From the IMG/VR virus record IMGVR_UViG_3300031220_000007, positions 1-36,227 of that record: 36,227 nucleotides of DNA; one strand, given 5' to 3'. The position numbers and the translations under genes were made by a program. The notes under the pieces were generated by a model, which did not search any database, had not been told where the DNA came from, and saw only the letters and a list, made by a program, of their open reading frames with translations. This document shows, in pieces, positions 37 to 36,227 of this stretch (the stretch's first letter is position 1; each line of letters opens with the position of its first letter). This DNA comes from a virus.

Positions 37-282
37 AATTTTACACGATACGCTGAAGTGTGCACAATCTGAAAAACAGTATCATTCTAATTTATTGGGG
101 AAATGGTTTTTTAGATATGTCTAGTGTAGTATTATATATGTGTGTTATGCCATAAAAGTGCCTCTAAAAGACTAATACAATGTTGTATTGTCCTATTGTT
201 ATGCCATAACGACTCTGGGAGAGCAACTGGGCTTTGATACTGTTTTTCAGATTGTGCACACTTCAGCGTATCGTGTAAAATT
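37..282. repeat. Perfect 48-bp inverted repeat with 150-bp spacer
   Basis: Bases 37-84 are the exact reverse complement of 235-282, as read by eye with no mismatch. The spacer 85-234 has no convincing gene. As RNA or as a cruciform this gives a 48-bp stem. The right arm ends inside the first unit of the 9-bp tandem array that starts at 277, so the two elements are physically joined. Possible roles are a replication origin structure, a recombination site pair bounding an invertible segment, or a structured RNA. The sequence alone does not decide between them. Confidence 0.9.
144..209. repeat. Palindromic motif pair in the inverted-repeat spacer
   Basis: GTTATGCCATAA occurs at 144-155 and again at 198-209. 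Its core TTATG-C-CATAA is an 11-bp palindrome. Between the copies, at 174-189, lies a second dyad, AATACAA-TG-TTGTATT, whose flanks GAC and GTC can also pair. Two copies of a palindrome plus a central dyad look like binding sites for a dimeric protein, such as a repressor, an initiator or a recombinase. No such protein can be assigned from this window. Confidence 0.6.
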
Positions 283-402
283 ACCAAAATTACCAAAATT
301 ACCAAAATTACCAAAATTACCAAAATTACCAAAATTACCAAAATTACCAAAATTACCAAAATTACCAAAATTACCAAAATTACCAAAATTACCAAAATTA
401 CC
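277..402. repeat. Iteron-like array, 14 x 9 bp (AAAATTACC)
   Basis: Fourteen exact, head-to-tail copies of AAAATTACC fill 277-402, followed by a partial AAAT. The array directly abuts the right arm of the 48-bp inverted repeat and lies about 95 bp before the first gene. Apparent reading frames through it (KLP or VIL repeats) are artefacts of a unit divisible by three. The layout resembles plasmid and phage iteron clusters or an AT-rich unwinding element; that role is inferred. Confidence 0.85.
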
Positions 403-496: not shown

Positions 497-634
497 ATGA
501 AACAAGCACCAATGAGTGTGGAACTCTCACAATCCGACTTGAACCAGGCTGTTGCGGAATGGGCGTTGAAACATCACCAACAAACCGTGATCAGTGTGCA
601 AACCCGCTCACCTGTCACATATGCAACAAAATGA
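497..634 (+). CDS. Small hypothetical protein, 45 aa
   Basis: The ATG at 497 lies 12 bases after the AAGG of the repeated leader CATCACAAGGAA. An in-frame reading exists further upstream but runs through the 9-bp tandem array and is not credible. The product is soluble, rich in Gln and Ser, and resembles nothing I recognise. Its stop TGA (632-634) overlaps the ATG of the next gene (631-633), so the two are probably translationally coupled. It may mainly serve as a leader cistron for the gene at 631. Confidence 0.55.
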   Translation: MKQAPMSVELSQSDLNQAVAEWALKHHQQTVISVQTRSPVTYATK

Positions 635-1176
635 CAGATGACATTCGCGCAATTGTTGCAAGCGGCGCGCAACTAACCAGTGATCAAGATGATAGGGCTT
701 ATGCGCTTTTGTCACCTGAAGAATATGCACAAATTCCAAACACTCAAAAACCACAAACACAAGCAACCTTAACCGTCCAAGGTTTCGCATCACTTCAAAA
801 TGATTGGTGTGTTTATGTGGTGAATGGTGTGTTTGTTGGTTTGTGTAAATTCTCGCAAATGTTAGCAATGCCGGATATGCTACAATCCAAAACATTCAAA
901 ACAATGAACACACCGGAAACACCTTTAACAATAAATTTGGTAGGTGTGTTCAACAGCGCCACAGACGCCAACCAGCACCGTGACACGCTATTGGCGTCCG
1001 GTCCCTACATATCCAGCATGAACAGCACAGAATGGGCTAGTTTCAAGCCTCACACCATACGCTGTACATCAGACGGTAACACGTTCCGAACTATCAAGGA
1101 TGTTACCGACTTTTACGGAATATCTCGCACAACTGTTTATAACGGTTTAACAAATGGAAGCTTTGAAAGAATATGA
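631..1176 (+). CDS. HTH (NUMOD/IENR1-like)-ended phage protein, 181 aa
   Basis: The start at 631 is chosen because ATGA overlaps the stop of the 45-aa gene; a longer in-frame reading back to 439 would overlap that gene completely. The C-terminal about 45 residues contain TIRCTSDGNTF, then an Ala/Val-type helix, YGISRTTVYNGL and the end SFERI. This fits the helix-turn-helix modules (NUMOD1/IENR1 type) found at the ends of GIY-YIG and HNH homing endonucleases. No nuclease domain is visible here. The central part (a VGVF..ATDAN..RD segment) aligns by eye with the protein at 1523-2017, so the two look like diverged paralogues. Probably DNA-binding; function unknown. Confidence 0.7.
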   Translation: MTDDIRAIVASGAQLTSDQDDRAYALLSPEEYAQIPNTQKPQTQATLTVQGFASLQNDWCVYVVNGVFVGLCKFSQMLAMPDMLQSKTFKTMNTPETPLTINLVGVFNSATDANQHRDTLLASGPYISSMNSTEWASFKPHTIRCTSDGNTFRTIKDVTDFYGISRTTVYNGLTNGSFERI

Positions 1177-3062: not shown

Positions 3063-3261
3063 CAAAGCAGTTGAAACCGCTTGGTTAATATTCAACCAAT
3101 TTGTAAAAACAGACCAGATGCAACATATTGTGTTTGATGGTTTCGCGCGCGTTGGGGAGTATTATCACATCAGCGTTGGCTACACGCTGGAAACCAGACA
3201 ACACGCAGTGTTTGAAATACAATGCCAAACTTACAAAATGAAAAGGATGATCACAACATGA
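3055..3261 (+). CDS. Hypothetical protein upstream of thyX, 68 aa
   Basis: The ATG at 3055 overlaps the stop of the out-of-frame domain (ATGGATAA). An upstream TTG at 3031 is less likely. The sequence starts MDNKAVETAWLIFNQF and has a GEYYHISVGYTLETRQH beta-rich centre. Its TGA (3259-3261) overlaps the thyX ATG (ATGA), and the AAGGATGA ribosome binding site for thyX lies within its last codons. Unknown function; coupling suggests co-expression with thyX. Confidence 0.6.
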   Translation: MDNKAVETAWLIFNQFVKTDQMQHIVFDGFARVGEYYHISVGYTLETRQHAVFEIQCQTYKMKRMITT

Positions 3262-5036
3262 AATTAACACCTGAACAGAAAACACAAATCTCCGCTTCAC
3301 GTGACAACCAACAAATGACACGGCGCGCAATTTCACCAGGAATGGAAAAACACCTACACACCGCTCACCCCGTCTTAGATCACGGTTTTGTGCGTGTGGT
3401 TGATTATATGGGTAATGACGAAGCGATTGCACAGGCCGCGCGGGTTAGCTATGGAACCGGAACAAAAACCACACAAGATGACGCCGGATTAATTCGATAC
3501 CTTATGCGTCATTGGCACAGTACACCATTTGAAATGTGCCTTAGTGGCGATACAAAAGTACCACATTTTGCACCATCCGGTGTTTCCGTGAAATGGTACA
3601 CAATGAGAGAATTAGCTGAAGCATTTGAAGTTGGCGGTAAAGAAAATTCTTGGGTCAAAATTTTAAAAATTAGAACGGTAAACCCAACAACAGGTGTTGT
3701 GACAGGAACAAAAATTAAAAACGCTTGGAAAACCGGAGTTCGTTCCGTTTATAGGATTACCACCGGAGCGCCGTTTTTCCGGTCAATTAAAGTAACAGAT
3801 AATCACAGAATTATGACACCTAATGGATTTGGAACATTAGCGGACGGTTTGAAAATCGGAAGCGAAGTAATGTTGAATGGTTCAAAATGTTATGGTGCCG
3901 ATATTGTTTCTGAGATTGTAAGGCGGCGTGACGCTGGTGAAACTCAAAAGCAAATTCATTCCGCTATGGGTGTTGCACCAGCGACAATAACAAAATACGC
4001 GGGGAGAATGATTGCAACAGGTACTCACACGATTATGAACCCTGACAACAGGCGAGTTGCACCTGAAGATCAAAAAGACGTGAGACACATCACACGTTCG
4101 ATGTATCCTAAGATCGGAACTTGTGAAACACTTGGTTGTAGTGAAAAAGCCACAGACAGACATCACATTGACGAAAATCCGGCAAATAACTTGCGTGAAA
4201 ATGTTTCTTTCTTGTGCGCCAAACATCACAGACACGTCCACACCAACGGTTTGTTGAGCAAAGCTATTTCTTGCAAAATTGCAAAAATTGAATACGTTGG
4301 TGTTGAAGATGTTTACGATTTGGAAACCGTTGATAGTAATCACACTTTTGTAGCCGAAGGAATAATTGTTCACAATTGCGAAATAAAATTGCACGTTAAG
4401 TTGCCTGTATTTGTTGCGCGCCAATGGATACGCCACCGCACCGCGAATGTAAACGAATACAGCGCGCGCTATTCAATTCTGGACCGTGAATTTTATTTTC
4501 CAGAACCGGAACAAGTGCAAGCGCAATCAACAACAAATGCACAGGGTAAATCAGGTGCCGTTGATCCAAAACACATTGAAGATTGGTTGTGTGATAGCAA
4601 AGAAGCATGTGAAACGGCTTACGATAACTATCAACACGCTCTGCATGATGCTGGTGAAAGCAATCAAAACGGTTATGGAATTGCGCGTGAACTCGCCCGC
4701 ATCAACCTACCTGCAAACATCTACACACAATGGTATTGGAAAGTTGATTTGCACAATCTTTTCCACTTTTTGAGATTGCGCGCGGATGCACATGCACAAT
4801 ATGAAATTCGTGTTTATGCTGATTTGATTTGCAAGCTGGTAGCAGATTGGGTGCCTGAAGCGTATGCAGCGTTCGAAGAATACCGTTTGAGCGGCGCACA
4901 GCTATCACACAGCGGCCTAGAGGCTGTTCAGGCTATGTTGCGCGGGGAAACTGTCACAAGGCACACAGCAGGCATGTCAGCAGGCGAGTGGCGCGAATTT
5001 CAGGCTGTGATTGACAGTAAAGCGCAACCCGTATAA
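3258..5036 (+). CDS. thyX: Flavin-dependent thymidylate synthase ThyX with intein
   Basis: Makes dTMP from dUMP using FAD, NADPH and methylene-tetrahydrofolate, supplying thymidine for phage DNA. The ATG at 3258 has AAGGATGA 7 bases upstream and overlaps the previous stop. The 592-residue precursor holds an intein at residues 94-373; the spliced product would be about 312 aa. The signature RHR-x7-S appears as RHRTANVNEYSARY at residues 392-405. The later NLFHFLRLRADAHAQYEIR segment also fits the family. The intein follows HSTPFEM, a conserved active-site stretch. It is the last gene of the left + operon, followed by hairpins at 5044-5134. Confidence 0.95.
   Translation: MKLTPEQKTQISASRDNQQMTRRAISPGMEKHLHTAHPVLDHGFVRVVDYMGNDEAIAQAARVSYGTGTKTTQDDAGLIRYLMRHWHSTPFEMCLSGDTKVPHFAPSGVSVKWYTMRELAEAFEVGGKENSWVKILKIRTVNPTTGVVTGTKIKNAWKTGVRSVYRITTGAPFFRSIKVTDNHRIMTPNGFGTLADGLKIGSEVMLNGSKCYGADIVSEIVRRRDAGETQKQIHSAMGVAPATITKYAGRMIATGTHTIMNPDNRRVAPEDQKDVRHITRSMYPKIGTCETLGCSEKATDRHHIDENPANNLRENVSFLCAKHHRHVHTNGLLSKAISCKIAKIEYVGVEDVYDLETVDSNHTFVAEGIIVHNCEIKLHVKLPVFVARQWIRHRTANVNEYSARYSILDREFYFPEPEQVQAQSTTNAQGKSGAVDPKHIEDWLCDSKEACETAYDNYQHALHDAGESNQNGYGIARELARINLPANIYTQWYWKVDLHNLFHFLRLRADAHAQYEIRVYADLICKLVADWVPEAYAAFEEYRLSGAQLSHSGLEAVQAMLRGETVTRHTAGMSAGEWREFQAVIDSKAQPV
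3537..4376 (+). mobile_element. Intein with HNH homing endonuclease in ThyX
   Basis: 280 codons in frame. The first residue is Cys in CLSGDTKV (block A), with a VTDNHRIMTPNG segment matching block B. The end has VYDLETVDSNHTFVAEG (block F) and terminal IIVHN followed by Cys (+1, TGC 4377-4379). All residues needed for splicing are therefore present. A resolvase-like HTH (ETQKQIHSAMGVAPATITKY) precedes an HNH-type segment with GCSEKATDRHHIDENPANN and FLCAKHHRHVH, including the paired Cys and His residues. This points to an active, mobile intein. Confidence 0.92.
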
Positions 5037-5181: not shown

Positions 5182-5277
5182 TCATATGTGTTGAGTATCG
5201 AAACAAACGCACTTAAAGCCCATTTGCGCCCAAGGTTTAACCGCTTCACCAGTAAAATCGTACAGAGACAATATCAC
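5182..5277 (-). pseudogene. Truncated, GTGA-coupled DNA methylase-like remnant (31 aa)
   Basis: A GTG at 5277-5275 overlaps the TGA of the primase gene (GTGA), the coupling style used elsewhere in this phage. The frame reads VILSLYDFTGEAVKPWAQMG, then FKCVCFDTQH, and stops at 5184-5182. LSLYDFTG..VKPWA..G..C.C.D.QH strongly resembles the amino end of phage DNA (cytosine) methylase-like proteins, where it would be the SAM-binding motif I region. In the +1 frame the reading continues NTYEFIEMMGVPKMVAR to a TAG at 5141-5139, which also looks protein-like. An internal deletion of a once longer gene is likely. The family assignment is from memory. Confidence 0.5.
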
Positions 5278-7577
5278 GCTTCATACCCCTGCATTTGTCC
5301 AAATTGAGCAACGTTTGCAGTTGGTTCAATGTGATAAATTTCCGCTTTGTTGTTTGCATCTTCAGTAAAATATGGACGTGTTGCGCGCCCAATTCTCATA
5401 TAACCAAGCTGTTCAAGAACACTCGCAATTGTCTGTGTAGAAACCGCCCGTTGCCCAACCTGTTTGATCCTGTTTGCAACCGCCAAACTTGAAACATAAC
5501 CACCGCGAAAACCAGGTGCAGCATCTTCAACCGCATCAAGAACCATTTTTTCCAACGGTGAACGGGATTTTTGCAACGCCTCTTGTGTGCTGGAAGTTTG
5601 CGGCGCGCGCATCGGTATACCTCTAAACTCAATCGGATAGTTTTTTAGATAGTTTGCCACAATTGCGCCGCCGTTCTGGTGTTCAATCCAATCAAACAAC
5701 CAGTTGAAATATGGGTCATCCATGCCAGCCGCTAAAATGTGTTCAGCAGTTTGCAGACCACTATAGTTGATTGAGAACCGCCGCCCGTTTTTGTTAATGG
5801 GAATTGCATCTTTCCAGTTGCTAAAAAACATCCAATTTGAATAGTTATCTTCTTTGTCTTGGTCACTGCCTTTACCTTGAATTTCAATCTCTTTTTCAGA
5901 TATAAAATCCTTCAGAATTTCAATCATATCACGGCGTTCATCGGTGCGAATTTCATCAACCAAAATGAACAATTTAGCGCGCATCCAAGCATTAAACTTT
6001 GAACCACTTTCCGCCATTTCTTTAGCTTTAGGATAGTAAACATAAGGTGAACCCATTGCGTGACGCATTACCGCTTTAAATATACCCTTTCCAACACCTT
6101 CAGCAGATTGCAGCAATGGTGCCCAAGGTATTTTATAGCCTGGAAACTTTACATTGTGTGCAAGATATTGCAAAAATATATGTTGGTCATTTTCGTTTGG
6201 TAATATTCGCGCAAGGTGGTTTAAAAATGGCGCAGGATCACCAACAACCAAGTTGATGTTTGCAGGTTTATAGGTGTTGACACCAGCGCGCCCCAATTCA
6301 TCAACATGCACATCTAAGTGAGGCACATGCGGCAAAAATCTAATGTGGTCAACTTTTTGAATTGTGCCAAGTGTTGAGCGTGTAGCCGCTTGCCAAGGTT
6401 CATTCACAACTTTTGCCTGTTCATCAATGATAAACTTTTTACCACCATATTCAGCATTGAATTGCGTTACGTTCATCATGCGACCGGAAGGCGTTAGAAT
6501 TTTTCCCATGTTGGCAATAAATGCGCAACCTTGAAAATATATAGCTTGCTCACCAGCGGTCAATAACTCGCCTGTACCGTCCAATGTGGGTGGTTCTGGT
6601 GCTGGCATAGGCGGCACAGGGGCTTGCCCTGCTACGGGCGCGGACATGGGCTGTTGTGTGATACCTGCAAAGCTTGCGTGTGCTTTAACAGCAGGGACGC
6701 GGGATTTGATGCTATTCCAGCCAAGTTGTGCATTTTGTATGCTATCCCATTGCTTGCGATTTTCAGCAATATCATTGAATTCATAACGGTCACACCATGC
6801 GGACCACATATTGAAAATTGTGTCAGGGTCAGCAAGCGACCAAGCACATTGTTTGATTGCAGCGGTAAAACCTATCCACTCGCCACGGTCCAGGTCATTG
6901 GGGTCACATTGATCAAGTGCAAATTGTACCCATGTAAGCGATGGTGCAGCTTTGTCAGGATCACCCAATTCATGCCGCGCGCCACCAAAATCAACAATAT
7001 TAACGTGTTCTAAAGCTTGCTCAAAATACTCAATCGGTGTGACGTAGCCAAAACCAGACAATGCGGAACAGGTTACAAGTTGCGGTGTGCCCTTCTGGTG
7101 AAGGGTGCCAGGAAGGCGCATCACCCTTGGTGCATCAAAGATAACCGGATCAGCATCAAAAAACTGGATTAACTTTTTCTGAATTGTGCTGAAGCGGTCA
7201 TTGCCAGCGTATGCGACAACAGGCCAGTAAACATGCGCTTTGTTCGCACTACTTTGAACCATAAAGGCTGGTTTGATTGACCAATCATTTGCGCGCGCAA
7301 GGTTTTGCATTGCGTTCAAATTATCAAGGTCAACAAAATGTGCGCGAATTCGGGTGATGTTTTCAGCAAGGACGCGCCCGCCGTTGCTTTCATTTACGAC
7401 ACAAAAACAACCATAACCAGCGGTGTTATGTGTGACCAGTTGCGACCAAACATCGTCAATTGTGCCGCGAAAATTGACACCTTGTACGCCACGATCTTTA
7501 TCATGTATCGCGCGGAAATCGAACACGCCACCGCCTAGCGCATCGGTAAATGCGCGCGCTTGGGTTATGTCTTGCAT
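5274..7577 (-). CDS. Primase-helicase, DUF5906/SF3-like, 767 aa
   Basis: The N-terminal half (residues about 1-290) resembles RepB-like/archaeo-eukaryotic primases: HFVDLDN at about 88 and a KAHVYWPV segment. The C-terminal half carries a Walker A-type loop LLQSAEGVGKGIFKAVM at about residue 490 and a Walker B LFILVDEIRT at about 540, as in the DUF5906 phage helicases. A Pro/Ala linker (PVAGQAPVPPMPAPEPP) joins the halves. The likely role is priming and unwinding at the phage fork. The start overlaps the upstream HTH gene by 13 bases. The stop overlaps the GTG of a truncated remnant. About 100-200 bp beyond it lie the convergent hairpins of the thyX operon. Confidence 0.85.
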   Translation of the reverse strand: MQDITQARAFTDALGGGVFDFRAIHDKDRGVQGVNFRGTIDDVWSQLVTHNTAGYGCFCVVNESNGGRVLAENITRIRAHFVDLDNLNAMQNLARANDWSIKPAFMVQSSANKAHVYWPVVAYAGNDRFSTIQKKLIQFFDADPVIFDAPRVMRLPGTLHQKGTPQLVTCSALSGFGYVTPIEYFEQALEHVNIVDFGGARHELGDPDKAAPSLTWVQFALDQCDPNDLDRGEWIGFTAAIKQCAWSLADPDTIFNMWSAWCDRYEFNDIAENRKQWDSIQNAQLGWNSIKSRVPAVKAHASFAGITQQPMSAPVAGQAPVPPMPAPEPPTLDGTGELLTAGEQAIYFQGCAFIANMGKILTPSGRMMNVTQFNAEYGGKKFIIDEQAKVVNEPWQAATRSTLGTIQKVDHIRFLPHVPHLDVHVDELGRAGVNTYKPANINLVVGDPAPFLNHLARILPNENDQHIFLQYLAHNVKFPGYKIPWAPLLQSAEGVGKGIFKAVMRHAMGSPYVYYPKAKEMAESGSKFNAWMRAKLFILVDEIRTDERRDMIEILKDFISEKEIEIQGKGSDQDKEDNYSNWMFFSNWKDAIPINKNGRRFSINYSGLQTAEHILAAGMDDPYFNWLFDWIEHQNGGAIVANYLKNYPIEFRGIPMRAPQTSSTQEALQKSRSPLEKMVLDAVEDAAPGFRGGYVSSLAVANRIKQVGQRAVSTQTIASVLEQLGYMRIGRATRPYFTEDANNKAEIYHIEPTANVAQFGQMQGYEA

Positions 7578-14025: not shown

Positions 14026-14712
14026 ATGAACAGCGTAAGCGTAACACTTAAATTTTCCAGCCTTGCCGCGATGATTGCCCATTTTTCCGGCGATACATCA
14101 GCACAACCCGTTTTTACCAGCGTCAACACACCCGCGCATGATGACGAAAATGACATGGCGGTAAATATGTACGGGTCATCACCGGACGAAGATGACGAAA
14201 CCCTGAACACAGCACCGCCCGCAACCGATAGCGCAGGCATGCCTTGGGATGAACGTATTCACGCACCATCCAAGGGAACCATCAAGGACGGAACCTGGCG
14301 CGCGAAAAAAGGTGTTTCGGATGAACTGAAGGCGCAAGTTACCGCAGAATTGAGCGCAACCACAGCGCCACCCATGCCCACGGCACAACCGACACCGCAA
14401 GCAACCACAGCGCCACCCATGCCCACGGCACAACCGACACCGCAAGCAACCACAGCGCCACCCATGCCCACGGCACAACCGACACCGCAAGCAACCACAG
14501 CGCCACAAAGTGAATTCCAATCGTTCATGGAAAAGATGCAACCGATTATGCAATCTGGTGCAGTTGATGCTGCATATTTGTCCGGTTTGACAAGTGAAAT
14601 TGCGGGTGCGTTTGGTCAACCGTTGAGCGCAATCACAGATATTGCAAGCAATCCGCAAATGATCAATTTTGCAATTCAGGCAATGCAACGCGATGGAAAA
14701 TGGACCGCTTAA
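14026..14712 (+). CDS. Proline-repeat replication-module protein, 228 aa
   Basis: The ATG at 14026 follows ACAGGACAAAACAAA. The longer frame from 13789 would cross the promoter region and is rejected. Residues about 72-105 (GMPWDERIHAPSKGTIKDGT, then WRAKKGV) form a motif common in phage replication-region proteins. It is followed by three exact 15-residue Pro/Ala/Thr repeats (APPMPTAQPTPQATT) and a partial fourth. The C-terminal part is helical. It is probably a scaffold or regulatory partner of the exonuclease/SSB genes that follow; the function is unknown. Confidence 0.7.
   Translation: MNSVSVTLKFSSLAAMIAHFSGDTSAQPVFTSVNTPAHDDENDMAVNMYGSSPDEDDETLNTAPPATDSAGMPWDERIHAPSKGTIKDGTWRAKKGVSDELKAQVTAELSATTAPPMPTAQPTPQATTAPPMPTAQPTPQATTAPPMPTAQPTPQATTAPQSEFQSFMEKMQPIMQSGAVDAAYLSGLTSEIAGAFGQPLSAITDIASNPQMINFAIQAMQRDGKWTA
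14356..14506. repeat. 45-bp coding tandem repeat, 3.4 copies
   Basis: Exact copies at 14356-14400, 14401-14445 and 14446-14490, with a partial copy at 14491-14506. The copies are identical at the base level, so the expansion is recent. The unit is a multiple of three and encodes a flexible Pro-rich linker. Confidence 0.9.
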
Positions 14713-15830: not shown

Positions 15831-16715
15831 ATGGTTACTGAAGTAAAAGGTACAATTGTTGGGCGTTGCGTTTGGGGTGATGTTGGTAAACCCAAACCAA
15901 AGATTGATTTGGATACAAAGCAACCCGTTTTGAAAGACGGTCAACCCGTTATGCAAACTGCGTTTGGTTTGGCTTTTGACAAAGCACAATTTGCTGAACA
16001 CATTTGGCCTTACATGGCTAGTGAAGCGGCAACAGCATTTCCTAACGGTACACCGCCCCAATTTTCATGGAAATATATTGACGGTGACACAACCGACAAG
16101 CAAGGAAAACCATATTCCGCGCGTGAAGGGTATGGCGGTTGCATTGTTCTTACTGTCAAAACTGAAGCGTTCTCACCACCTGTTTACGCTTTTGAAAATG
16201 GTTCATACCGTCAAATGCAACCACACGAATTCAAAACAGGCGATTATTTTGCAATTGATCTGAAATTGCAAGTAAACGTGCCAACAAATCGGACGCACAC
16301 ACCAGGGCTTTACGTCAACCCCGAGGGTTTGTTGTTTTTCCAAGCTGGCCCTGCAATTATGAACAGTGCCAGTCCTGAAGATATGTTTAGCGGTGTTCGC
16401 TCACAGCTTGCGTTACCACCTGGTGCGCCAACTATGCAATTGCCAGCAAGCAACATGCCACAGGGCCAGCCGCAAATGCAGCCACAGGGCCAGCCACAGG
16501 GCCAGCCACAGGGCCAGCCACAGGGCCAGCCGCAAATGCAGCCACAGGGCCAGCCGCAAATGCAGCCACAGGGCCAGCCGCAAATGCAGCCACAGGGCCA
16601 GCCGCAAATGCAGCCACAGGGCCAGCCACAGGGCCAGCCACAGGGCCAGCCGCAAATGCAGCCAGCACACGGTTTTGCACAGGGTCCAGGCAGCACCCAA
16701 ACCCCAAACGGCTAA
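15831..16715 (+). CDS. DUF2815-like ssDNA-binding protein with Gln-rich tail, 294 aa
   Basis: Start ATG 15831 has AAGG about 9 bases upstream. The first 190 residues (TIVGRCVWGDVGKPKPKIDL, QTAFGLAFDK, then PGLYVNPEGLLFF) match the phage DUF2815 family, a gp2.5-like OB fold that coats single strands. The tail from about residue 205 is a Gln/Pro-rich linker made of repeated QGQPQMQP units. The frame ends TQTPNG at 16715. Just before the stop lies the heptamer C CCA AAC followed by a strong hairpin; a -1 shift there would replace the last residue or two by a Cys/His-rich extension. See the separate frameshift entry. Confidence 0.88.
   Translation: MVTEVKGTIVGRCVWGDVGKPKPKIDLDTKQPVLKDGQPVMQTAFGLAFDKAQFAEHIWPYMASEAATAFPNGTPPQFSWKYIDGDTTDKQGKPYSAREGYGGCIVLTVKTEAFSPPVYAFENGSYRQMQPHEFKTGDYFAIDLKLQVNVPTNRTHTPGLYVNPEGLLFFQAGPAIMNSASPEDMFSGVRSQLALPPGAPTMQLPASNMPQGQPQMQPQGQPQGQPQGQPQGQPQMQPQGQPQMQPQGQPQMQPQGQPQMQPQGQPQGQPQGQPQMQPAHGFAQGPGSTQTPNG
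16461..16665. repeat. 12-bp/24-bp coding repeat in the SSB tail
   Basis: CAGGGCCAGCCA and CAGGGCCAGCCG-CAAATGCAGCCA units alternate about 13 times. They encode a Gln/Pro linker in frame 0; the same DNA gives AAGP or HRAS-type repeats in other frames, which are artefacts. In-frame units make the linker length free to vary. Confidence 0.85.
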
Positions 16716-21012: not shown

Positions 21013-24000
21013 CGCCTCTTTGTGATCGTTAGATAAAATTGACCGCCACCAGGATTTTGCGTAGCTGCGGAATTATTGGTGATAGTTACCTCAACACTAT
21101 CGTTTGCGTTAGCGTAAGCATGATAAGTCATGTAATCATCATAAGCATCTGGTGCGATTTGAATGTTATCACCTGTACTAACACCAGTAACGCCAGTAAC
21201 AACAGCTTTAGATGATACACCTGGACCAAGTGAAGATGGATTAAAATAGATTTGCGCTTGCCAAGTTTCAGATGGTGCACGGAAACCAATGCCTTTTTGT
21301 TTTAATGAAATTTGTCCTGTTGTATCAACAATTCTGGAGGGTAAAAGCCCTGAACTATATTTTACATCAACATCGGGGTTTATCGGCCCTAGATTGGTTC
21401 CCGTTAAAGCGTCACCAGACATATTCACAACATTGTTTGTTCCGTTGCCGCCTGTGAATTTACCTGTTATTGTTGGTTCATTCCACTTACCGTTTGTCAA
21501 AACACCACATTGATTGATTGGGCCACCGCCATTCGGATTTACTGTTGCTGTTGACATTTGAAAATCAACATCAATAATTTCAAGTTTTCCCAAAGTTGCA
21601 GTATCAACAGCATAACCAGATTGAGCAGAACCCCTATACAAAAGTTCAACACCACGAATACAGCGGTTTCCCCTGATAACATCACCGTGAATAGAAAAGT
21701 CACCTGGTGCAATTTCATGTTGAATTGTTGCAGGCATCCAATATCCGCGTAAAACATCTTCCCAATAGTTGTTGCGGCAAATCATTTTACCTGCACCAGA
21801 ACCAAGTTGAACAGCACAATCAAGAGATTTTGTATAAACACCAGAGCGAAAACCCCTGTTGTTAATCAAAGCTGAACCACGACCAGCAACCCGAACATCA
21901 ATAAATTGTTCACAATCTTCAAATAACCCACTTTCAACAACAACATTTTCATGGTTGTCGTGAAACGCAACACCTGAGCGATAATGTGCGCGGTGTGAGC
22001 CGTTTCTCAATGTTACGTTTCGTGTTGGACCCCTTTCCGTTCCGCTTGACGTAAGGCTAACACCTTCTCTACCACCGCGAACTGAATAGTTATCAGCAAT
22101 TCCTTTTTCGCAACCATTTGCGATTGCAAGAGGATATTGCAGTTTACCAAAATCAGGGTCTTGCTCAATAATAAATTCGGTATCACGAATTGAAAAATCA
22201 ACCGTGTTTATCATGTGAACACCGTGTTTGTCAAATTTATTATAAACACCCCCGTCAAACTTAATTTTACCACCGTTAACCAACAGAATACCAACATCTC
22301 CGGTATATCCATCGGTCAAGCTTCTTACCCAAGTTGCTGTTGTTCCTGTTCTGTCATAAGTTGCATAGCCGCTTGAAATAGCTGGATCGCCAGACGCATC
22401 ACGGACCCAAACACGTTCATTTGCAACAACTGGTAGTGCGTTTCTTTCTGAAATTGTGTTAACGTAGGTAAGATCAAACCTACCAGCACCCACCATATTT
22501 AGATTGTTAAATGTCAAATCAAGCAAATTGACCGCCACTTGAAGCTCAAAACCACCAAAACTAACGTAATTATCTCGAATTGGACTTTCCAATTGTGCAA
22601 CAGTTGGCGAACCGTTGGCAGAACCCACAACCCAAACAAGTTCAGCTTTTAAACCTAACGTGCCTTCTTCTTTTGTAAAATATTGATCAGCAGACCTTAG
22701 ATAACAGGGCCAACGATTTGTTTTATTTTCTGCAAGATAAGCTAATATTCTGTTTAAGTTTGTTGAACCCATTGCTATAGTTTTATCGCCAGCGGACGGT
22801 AACACTTGGTTGGGTATTGTTGACGCGCGCGTAATTGGATCGTGATATGTACCAGCGCCATAAAAAACAGGGTGCGCGTTCAACTTACCGTCTCGACCCC
22901 AATCAACAGCTTCAATCTTTGCACCATCACCACCATGCAAAATTGCAGATTGTGGAAGATACAAACGACCATCTGCGCGATTGTTCAAACGATATGTGCG
23001 CGATGAACCTATCGGATTGCTAAAAACAATTTCACGACCTTCACCAGCGTTAAACGCGGATTGTATTCCGGCGTGACAATTTAATGTGTCATTTGGATCA
23101 ACGTAATCAGCAACATCAATATAACGGCGTCTAAGTACTGTAGGACTTACAACATTGTTTATAGTCGCACTTTCAACCCAACTTGCCCAAGAACCGTTTA
23201 AAATGCGATGATATGTTTTATCACCTACAATTAAGAATTGAGAGGCATTTGTCGAATTTCTTTGAATGTGAAAACCATAACCCGCCGATGATGTTGGTGA
23301 ATTTAAACAATTAACAACACTTCTGAAAAATCTTGTGTTATCAAGAGTGTTTAAATCACTTACATCTTTTGCGGTGCTACCTACACCCGTTTCTGAAAAC
23401 GCAGCAGCTATAACCGCTGCACTTGCGGCACTTGCTGCACTTGCGGCGGCACTCGCGGCGGCATTATCTTGATACGCAACAGTTGCAATGTCGCTGATTA
23501 AACGAAAAGTTCCATCAGAAATAAAACCAGAAACAAACATGTTTTCTTTAAAAGCGTTTGCTGGTATTTGCACACCCGATACAGTCAAAACGCTTTTGGG
23601 AGTTTCACCGTTTATAGAAACTGTTACGTTTCCGGTGTTTGTTGCATTAACTTCAAAAGTAATTAATGCACGTCCATTTTGAATAGGCACGGGTAAATCT
23701 GTGTTAATTTGAATAGCGTTTGCCGTGCCTAAACCTTGATTTACACCAGCAATAGCAAACTGCGGAATGTCAATTCGCCGCGTCCAACTTGGTGCAATTG
23801 CTGTACCTGTATTTTCGTATATGCCGTTCAAGGCATTTACTGGATCACTTACAACCCAAGCCATAACTGAACGCTGTGAAACAGATGTTAAGCTTTGCAA
23901 ACTCGCTAGAGTGGCTTTAACCAAAGCACCAGCTTGCGCACCCTCAAGTTGAACCTGCATTTCAGCAAATGCTTTTACTGTGCCATGCCGCGATGGTGTT

Positions 24001-26637: not shown

Positions 26638-27290
26638 GGAATTATATATGTTCTGTTCGCAAGAGCCGCGACATATTCGCAACCTCTATCAACAGTAACA
26701 CCCAATTGCTTTGCCCGCTCAACTTGAATGGCGTTTGCATAAGTTCCGTTTGGTATTTCAGAACGTCCAAAATTTCCATCTTTTGCAATTATAGACGTTG
26801 TATATTTTTTAACAAAAGCACCGTTTACAACTTCCATTTTTTCAGAAAAATTAGGGTGCATCATTTCATATTCTTTAAAAAATACTATTGGTGTTGATGG
26901 TCGCAAACCTTCATCAATTTTGAAAATTGCGCGATACCCTGTTATTTTTCTTTTGTAAACTCGCCATTTGTCTTGTTTGATCGCTTCATAATGTTGACTT
27001 GCTGGAATTCCTGGTGTGTCTATTAGCTTCAATCCAAAAGTTGCTTTTACGCTAGAACCATCCCGACCGTCTTTAACAACTGGTGTTGTGTGATGGTCAA
27101 CACCGCGCGCGTCAACAGTACCCAACCAAGTGTTACCGTCCGCTGTGTGTAGCTTACCTTTGCCTTGCCACAACCGCAGCGGATAACCCTGAAAATCATA
27201 AAACCACAACATGCGAATAACAGCGCGAATATCGGTAACGTCATCTTGTTCACCGATATATTCATTTAACAAATCATAAAATTCTGACAT
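26634..27290 (-). CDS. Tail-tip protein, 218 aa (family not recognised)
   Basis: The ATG shares a base with the upstream TAA (TAATG). It begins MSEFYDLLNEYIGEQDDVTD and is a mixed alpha/beta protein with RMLWFYDFQGYPLRLWQGKG and GTVDARGVDHHTTP segments. It has no membrane or signal segment. It lies between the hub-type protein at 27290 and the DUF6950-like protein, in the position of lambda L/M-type tip genes. Function is inferred from position only. Confidence 0.6.
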   Translation of the reverse strand: MSEFYDLLNEYIGEQDDVTDIRAVIRMLWFYDFQGYPLRLWQGKGKLHTADGNTWLGTVDARGVDHHTTPVVKDGRDGSSVKATFGLKLIDTPGIPASQHYEAIKQDKWRVYKRKITGYRAIFKIDEGLRPSTPIVFFKEYEMMHPNFSEKMEVVNGAFVKKYTTSIIAKDGNFGRSEIPNGTYANAIQVERAKQLGVTVDRGCEYVAALANRTYIIP

Positions 27291-36119: not shown

Positions 36120-36227
36120 TGGTTCAATCCTTTGATTTGATATAATCGGACAATGAAGGATTTAAAATATTTTCGCAAGAGGGTAAAATAGTTGTTGACC
36201 AACTTGCAGATCATCGCTAAACAGGTG
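36116..36227 (-). CDS. Partial upstream reading frame at window edge
   Basis: Two minus frames are open to the edge. One ends LAKIF at a TAA (about 36159-36161) after LQVGQQLFYP. The other runs to a TGA that overlaps the ATG of the next gene and ends LYQIKGLNQ. The second fits the coupling habit of this phage. The first looks more like a folded capsid protein end. The correct one cannot be chosen without the sequence past the edge. Confidence 0.3.
   Translation of the reverse strand, partial: TCLAMICKLVNNYFTLLRKYFKSFIVRLYQIKGLNQ

Follow-up and report, generated by a model that had tools for sequence, protein, structure and literature searches.

A candidate replication origin with a long inverted repeat, a 9-bp tandem array and a centre found in two orientations in a siphophage clade

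The RepB' primase of the IncQ plasmid RSF1010 uses hairpin ssi sites, one per strand (PMC4234260, PMC4434180). A putative SCCmec origin contains both direct and inverted repeats; Cch2 binds the direct ones, which the helicase requires, and SaPI origins are bound by Rep (PMC7581432). The NrS-1 primase-polymerase initiates at TTTGGTTA (PMC8718748). For most environmental phages, the start of replication is unknown because origins have no common sequence. Here we describe an element near the left end of a linear IMG/VR fragment of 36,227 bases, the whole of which we call the window. With moderate confidence, we favour the view that this element is the replication origin, or the core of the origin, of a siphophage clade with an AEP-primase/helicase, and that its dyad centre can be flipped by recombination between the arms. 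No earlier description of the element was found in the open-licence literature on phage invertible promoters, on phage origins with iterons and inverted repeats, or on inversion isomers at origins.

The element begins with a left, flank-side arm at 37-84 (plus strand), and its right, iteron-side arm, identical in sequence, lies at 235-282 (minus strand). As the original prediction stated, the arms are exact reverse complements (48 nt, 100% complementary), with a spacer of 150 nt between them (85-234). The runner-up among perfect inverted repeats in the whole window, with copies at most 400 nt apart, was just 18 nt long, which excludes chance for the 48-nt arms, and the dyad score of the element reached z = 7.3 against dinucleotide shuffles. 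Position 1 lies 36 nt outside the left arm, and the DNA farther left is visible in two related contigs, L004 and L005. Three parts were kept in all known arms, namely TTTACACGATAC (40-51), GTGTGCACAA (58-67) and GATAC...GTATC (47-83). Within the spacer, a 13-bp direct repeat, TGTTATGCCATAA, occurs twice on the plus strand (143-155 and 197-209, the starts 54 bp apart). The two 11-bp palindromes that had been proposed here are the cores of this repeat, TTATGCCATAA (145-155 and 199-209), and they are palindromic only save for the centre base; neither core nor 13-mer had a further copy anywhere in the window. The additional dyad noted at 174-189 is present as AATACAATGTTGTATT (AATACAA-TG-TTGTATT), with one base changed in L005. 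The spacer held no conserved ORF, and as a structured RNA it was rejected (z = -1.2, with no Rfam match in the window).

The right arm runs straight into an iteron-like array of 14 full plus-strand copies of the 9-bp unit AAAATTACC (277-402; 14.3 copies to position 405), 100% identical as had been claimed, and the first 6 nt of copy 1 are common to the arm; L005 has 8 copies. The remainder of the AT-rich leader (403-496) is followed by a 45-aa ORF (497-634, plus strand), the first gene past the element. Positions 1-496 contained no credible gene, in agreement with the original prediction, and the first genes with an ATG start at 497 and then at 631. The AT content of the element (0.71) was the maximum across the 12 kb tested. 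Features of an iteron-type origin were thus found in the short tandem repeats in AT-rich non-coding DNA and in an architecture kept at the same place in relatives. Typical plasmid iterons are longer than these 9-bp units, which counts against an origin.

In IMG/VR, pattern scans for the arm gave L004 and those for the repeat array gave L005; a looser arm pattern yielded no contig beyond these two there and none in 84,980 species genomes or in phage records. By blastn, the minus strand of the window was matched by L005 1-678 and 766-957 and again by the outer flank (1151-1234), but L005 952-1198 matched the plus strand of window 37-282; L004 showed the same strand pattern. When window 85-234 was reverse-complemented in silico, the window, L004 and L005 all aligned through arms and spacer. 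The spacer stands in orientation A in the window and in the opposite orientation, B, in L004 and L005, as read from single contigs, the window's being one metagenomic contig that ends 36 nt past the arm; the inversion of 85-234 that had been suspected is therefore seen among relatives. Across the shared flank and spacer, L004 differs from the window at a single base (window position 40), where the window has, in its left arm, the base of the iteron side and L004 and L005 have another. The arms are identical in the window and diverged in L005, where both arms retain TTTACACGATAC, TGTGCACA and GATAC...GTATC and the rest of the iteron-side arm has diverged. Identical arms in the window, together with the iteron-side base at 40, would fit exchange between the arms. 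Six-frame searches for tyrosine and serine recombinases (PF00589, PF00239) found none in the window record, L004, L005, L008, G003 or G004; the controls were positive, but each record is a fragment and the host could supply such an enzyme.

The inversion might instead be an assembly error, in which the window phage is in truth oriented like L004 and assembly left the 48-nt repeat by the wrong exit. Ordinary reads are longer than 48 nt and so should bridge the arms, and a wrong path alone leaves the one-base difference at 40 unexplained, but perfect arms occur in the window only, that base is otherwise the sole difference between the window and L004 in their shared DNA, and each of the two contigs terminates within or close to the element. 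We consider such an error possible, though unlikely; it bears on the inversion alone and leaves the interpretation as an origin untouched.

The window phage is a siphophage and distant kin of the Rhizobium phages vB_RglS_P106B and RHph_X2_24, with a polymerase about 57% identical; genes for a terminase, a portal or a major capsid protein were not found in the window. We gathered relatives with a TerL profile (80 loci) and found interrupted inverted repeats upstream of terL in L027, L028, L029, L037, L041, L045, L049, L054, L061 and others. Two of these distant relatives add repeats to the dyad: in L049 (2500-2880) short ones lie within both arms of a dyad about 300 bp across, and in L054 (2500-3000) repeats of ~20 bp flank the dyad. 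For 13 relatives, a ranking anchored on the gene family of the 181-aa product encoded at 631-1176 in the window compared the non-coding stretch lying up to ~0.9 kb upstream of this gene with the ~12 kb around it. That stretch held the strongest dyad of about 12 kb in 8 of the 13 (chance share about one in ten per locus), a count that includes the near relatives L027 and L028, uses a 0.9-kb limit chosen after the first examples had been seen, and leaves out the window's own row, for which the scanned slice ended short of the full dyad. The same stretch was the AT-richest 300 bp in 11 of 13 relatives, and in 8 of 13 it exceeded every other stretch in 9-mer direct repeats; the dyad was not top-ranked in L051, L060, L073, L077 and L040. 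The dyad and AT-rich DNA, often with direct repeats, are conserved in position.

Two relatives whose primases share 63-66% identity with the window primase illustrate this arrangement. L006 (15688-16115) has a long AT-rich non-coding stretch with two 21-bp repeats beside a weak concentric dyad (z = 3.6), and G004 (L019 2071-2392) has AT-rich non-coding DNA with a nested 82-nt dyad (z = 3.1; innermost loop about 9 nt) followed by direct repeats. In each case, 1 of 500 dinucleotide shuffles reached the observed score, and 21 of 22 control intergenic stretches had z < 3. Nested arms of 23 and 16 nt were present in L028, and L038 repeats the plan of the window with the gene, eight 10-bp repeats and a dyad. 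The gene order runs from dyad to repeats to the 181-aa-family gene, with the primase-helicase farther along on the opposite strand. Since the upstream sequences of the relatives do not match one another, it is the plan that is conserved and not the sequence. The Rigallicvirus phages vB_RglS_P106B and RHph_X2_24 share homologues of the polymerase, primase and terminase and a similar order of genes with the present group, but at the corresponding position, which in the RHph_X2_24 record is about 45380-45743, the dyads of these complete relatives are only weak (z = 0.3 and 1.8, respectively), and both phages lack the 48-nt arms and the 9-bp array.

The 181-aa-family gene itself (631-1176, plus strand) adjoins the element in relatives through its homologues. 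The protein and its relatives have a predicted DNA-binding end in common, and an N-terminal motif is also common to the family members beside the element in the window, L006, L027, L028 and G004. In the AlphaFold model (pLDDT 76, pTM 0.45), the middle (about 51-131) is GIY-YIG-like, as in I-TevI and UvrC, and the end (about 135-181) is like the I-TevI DNA-binding domain. VIA-align returned Z values of 4.6-6.1 with several GIY-YIG chains at the top, Foldseek alone returned no significant match, and we treat the predicted GIY-YIG assignment as a lead only. Given that the middle part is missing in L027 and L028 and seemingly degenerate in the window, a nuclease role is doubtful. Judging from the model, the product could be an origin- or operator-binding protein.

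The phage encodes its own DNA polymerase, primase-helicase and SSB, as originally noted, the last being a Gp2.5-like annealing protein/SSB, and also an exonuclease. The primase-helicase (5274-7577, minus strand) contains RepB_primase (PF16793; 30.2 bits, curated cut-off 24.3), PriCT_2 and DUF5906, all above cut-offs. Its best solved match was the primase chain 6k9e (E = 0.0017, with weak sequence similarity), which we take to be the NrS-1 primase-polymerase. This primase-helicase likely uses the origin, and as initiators that bind the repeats, the products of 631-1176 and 5274-7577 are candidates only. Elsewhere in the window, about 44 tandem 9-bp repeats (AAATTGCAC) lie within a gene at 2366-2872, the product of which is cysteine-rich with C-T-[N/D] triplets (phrog_15341, no known function). 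At 3222-5036, an intein with an HNH-like part splits the ThyX gene, and in-frame tandem repeats at 14356-14506 and 16457-16664 encode Pro/Thr/Gln-rich stretches, the second of which lies in the tail of the Gp2.5-like SSB. A second inverted repeat, of 42 nt and 98% complementary, has its copies 4.3 kb apart (22790-22831 and 27104-27145), one in sense in a small tail gene and the other antisense inside the large tail protein gene; the pair possibly bounds a larger invertible or copied segment.

The anatomy of the element, the same-place architecture in relatives, the gene order, the replication genes and the inversion relative to L004 and L005 together support an origin. As to its activity, its binding protein and the route of flipping, we infer that the 9-bp tandem repeats and the dyad would be bound by an initiator, either the primase-helicase or the DNA-binding protein encoded at 631-1176, that the AT-rich DNA would then open, and that the primase would begin synthesis at or near the conserved blocks of the arms, which face opposite ways. 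Because the arms are long, identical and close and the phage encodes both an exonuclease and an annealing protein, occasional recombination or template switching from one arm to the other would flip the 150-bp centre. Such a flip would be harmless because the dyad is symmetric, and exchange between the arms would also keep them identical. A bolder version strikes us as rather doubtful: with no dedicated site-specific recombinase involved, the centre would be inverted regularly as the phage replicates, through annealing between the arms or template switching of forks from one to the other, and the flip would fix the direction or start strand of replication or else maintain arm identity. The weak dyads of vB_RglS_P106B and RHph_X2_24 and the five loci without a top-ranked dyad argue against an origin. 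Silent-site GC skew, proposed earlier as a check, had no peak at the element; it kept one sign on the plus strand over the window and L004 and followed the gene strand in RHph_X2_24, and, being uniform or linked to the coding strand, it neither supports nor refutes an origin.

The main rivals to an origin are a control region and an enzymatic switch. DNA so rich in AT and in repeats, placed ahead of an early operon, could instead serve as a control region, its repeats and palindromes being operators for a phage regulator (perhaps the 631-1176 product acting on its own promoter) with no replication role. The element does precede the operon, its spacer has two near-palindromic 13-mers and a further dyad, and one end of the conserved neighbour gene's product is predicted to bind DNA, but a perfect dyad of 48 nt and a 126-bp run of identical tandem repeats would be unusual for operators, and the 13-mer is confined to the spacer within the window. 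Sigma-70-like promoter sites in the element were no better than the window background in either orientation. We regard a control region as unlikely.

An invertible switch would require a recombinase (a host Xer-type enzyme or an unrecognised phage protein) that flips the spacer, turning the operon at 497 on and off or re-orienting the binding-site array. Both orientations do occur among near-identical phages, and the L005 arms consist of conserved blocks split by variable sequence, in the manner of recombinase sites. In L005 (1827-4650, minus strand), six near-identical promoters (TTGACC/T-N17-TAATGT/TAAGGT) precede small early genes and point at the element; the operon downstream of the element is without a copy of the TTGACC-N17-TAATGT promoter repeated in this early module, its neighbour on the left. 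The last bases of the window (36197-36227) begin another promoter of the TTGACC/T-N17-TAATGT/TAAGGT type. With neither a tyrosine nor a serine recombinase among the six fragmentary records of the group, and with sigma-70-like sites in the spacer at background level whichever way it faces, a classical invertible promoter switch lacks support, and the innermost dyad loop of about 9 nt in G004 leaves little to switch. Bacterial invertons share with the element the inverted repeats around a short segment and the occurrence of both orientations, but the element has no recombinase or promoter that could be found, and its dyad is kept in relatives that lack a comparable centre. Overall, a switch appears improbable. 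A packaging, partition or dimer-resolution site is very improbable: centromere and resolution sites also carry repeat arrays and dyads, and terS lies about 3.5 kb off in L005, but no partition protein, resolvase or integrase was present among the genes examined, and the site is not beside the terminase genes and accompanies the 181-aa-family gene. Of the roles named in the original prediction, the origin gains from the positional and architectural conservation in relatives, a recombination element keeps some plausibility, and packaging went unsupported.

The positional rule derived here (the strongest dyad, the AT-richest DNA and often short direct repeats shortly upstream of one recognisable early gene) yields testable origin candidates in about a dozen phages. 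The natural inversion at a candidate origin likewise offers a way to study what happens to long dyads when forks or annealing proteins meet them.

Among described systems, oriV of RSF1010 (iterons, ssiA/ssiB) is similar to the element in having iterons by AT-rich DNA and two oppositely facing sites, and the phage primase carries the RepB_primase domain PF16793. The phage differs in its 9-bp repeats, in a primase fused to a helicase and in the absence of any RepC that could be found, and its single arms, tried as ssi-type hairpins, folded no better than shuffles. SCCmec and SaPI likewise combine short direct and inverted repeats in non-coding DNA with an AEP-type primase and a D5/Rep-type helicase, whereas the phage element is not beside the helicase gene, has much longer and perfect arms, and has a flipped spacer. 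With regard to NrS-1, the iteron complement TTTGGTAA is one base off the start motif TTTGGTTA (7 of 8 bases), a weak likeness in which chance may suffice, as the exact motif is absent from the element. While answering to the full definition of none of them, the element appears, on the comparison of its anatomy, to resemble the RSF1010, SCCmec and NrS-1 systems.
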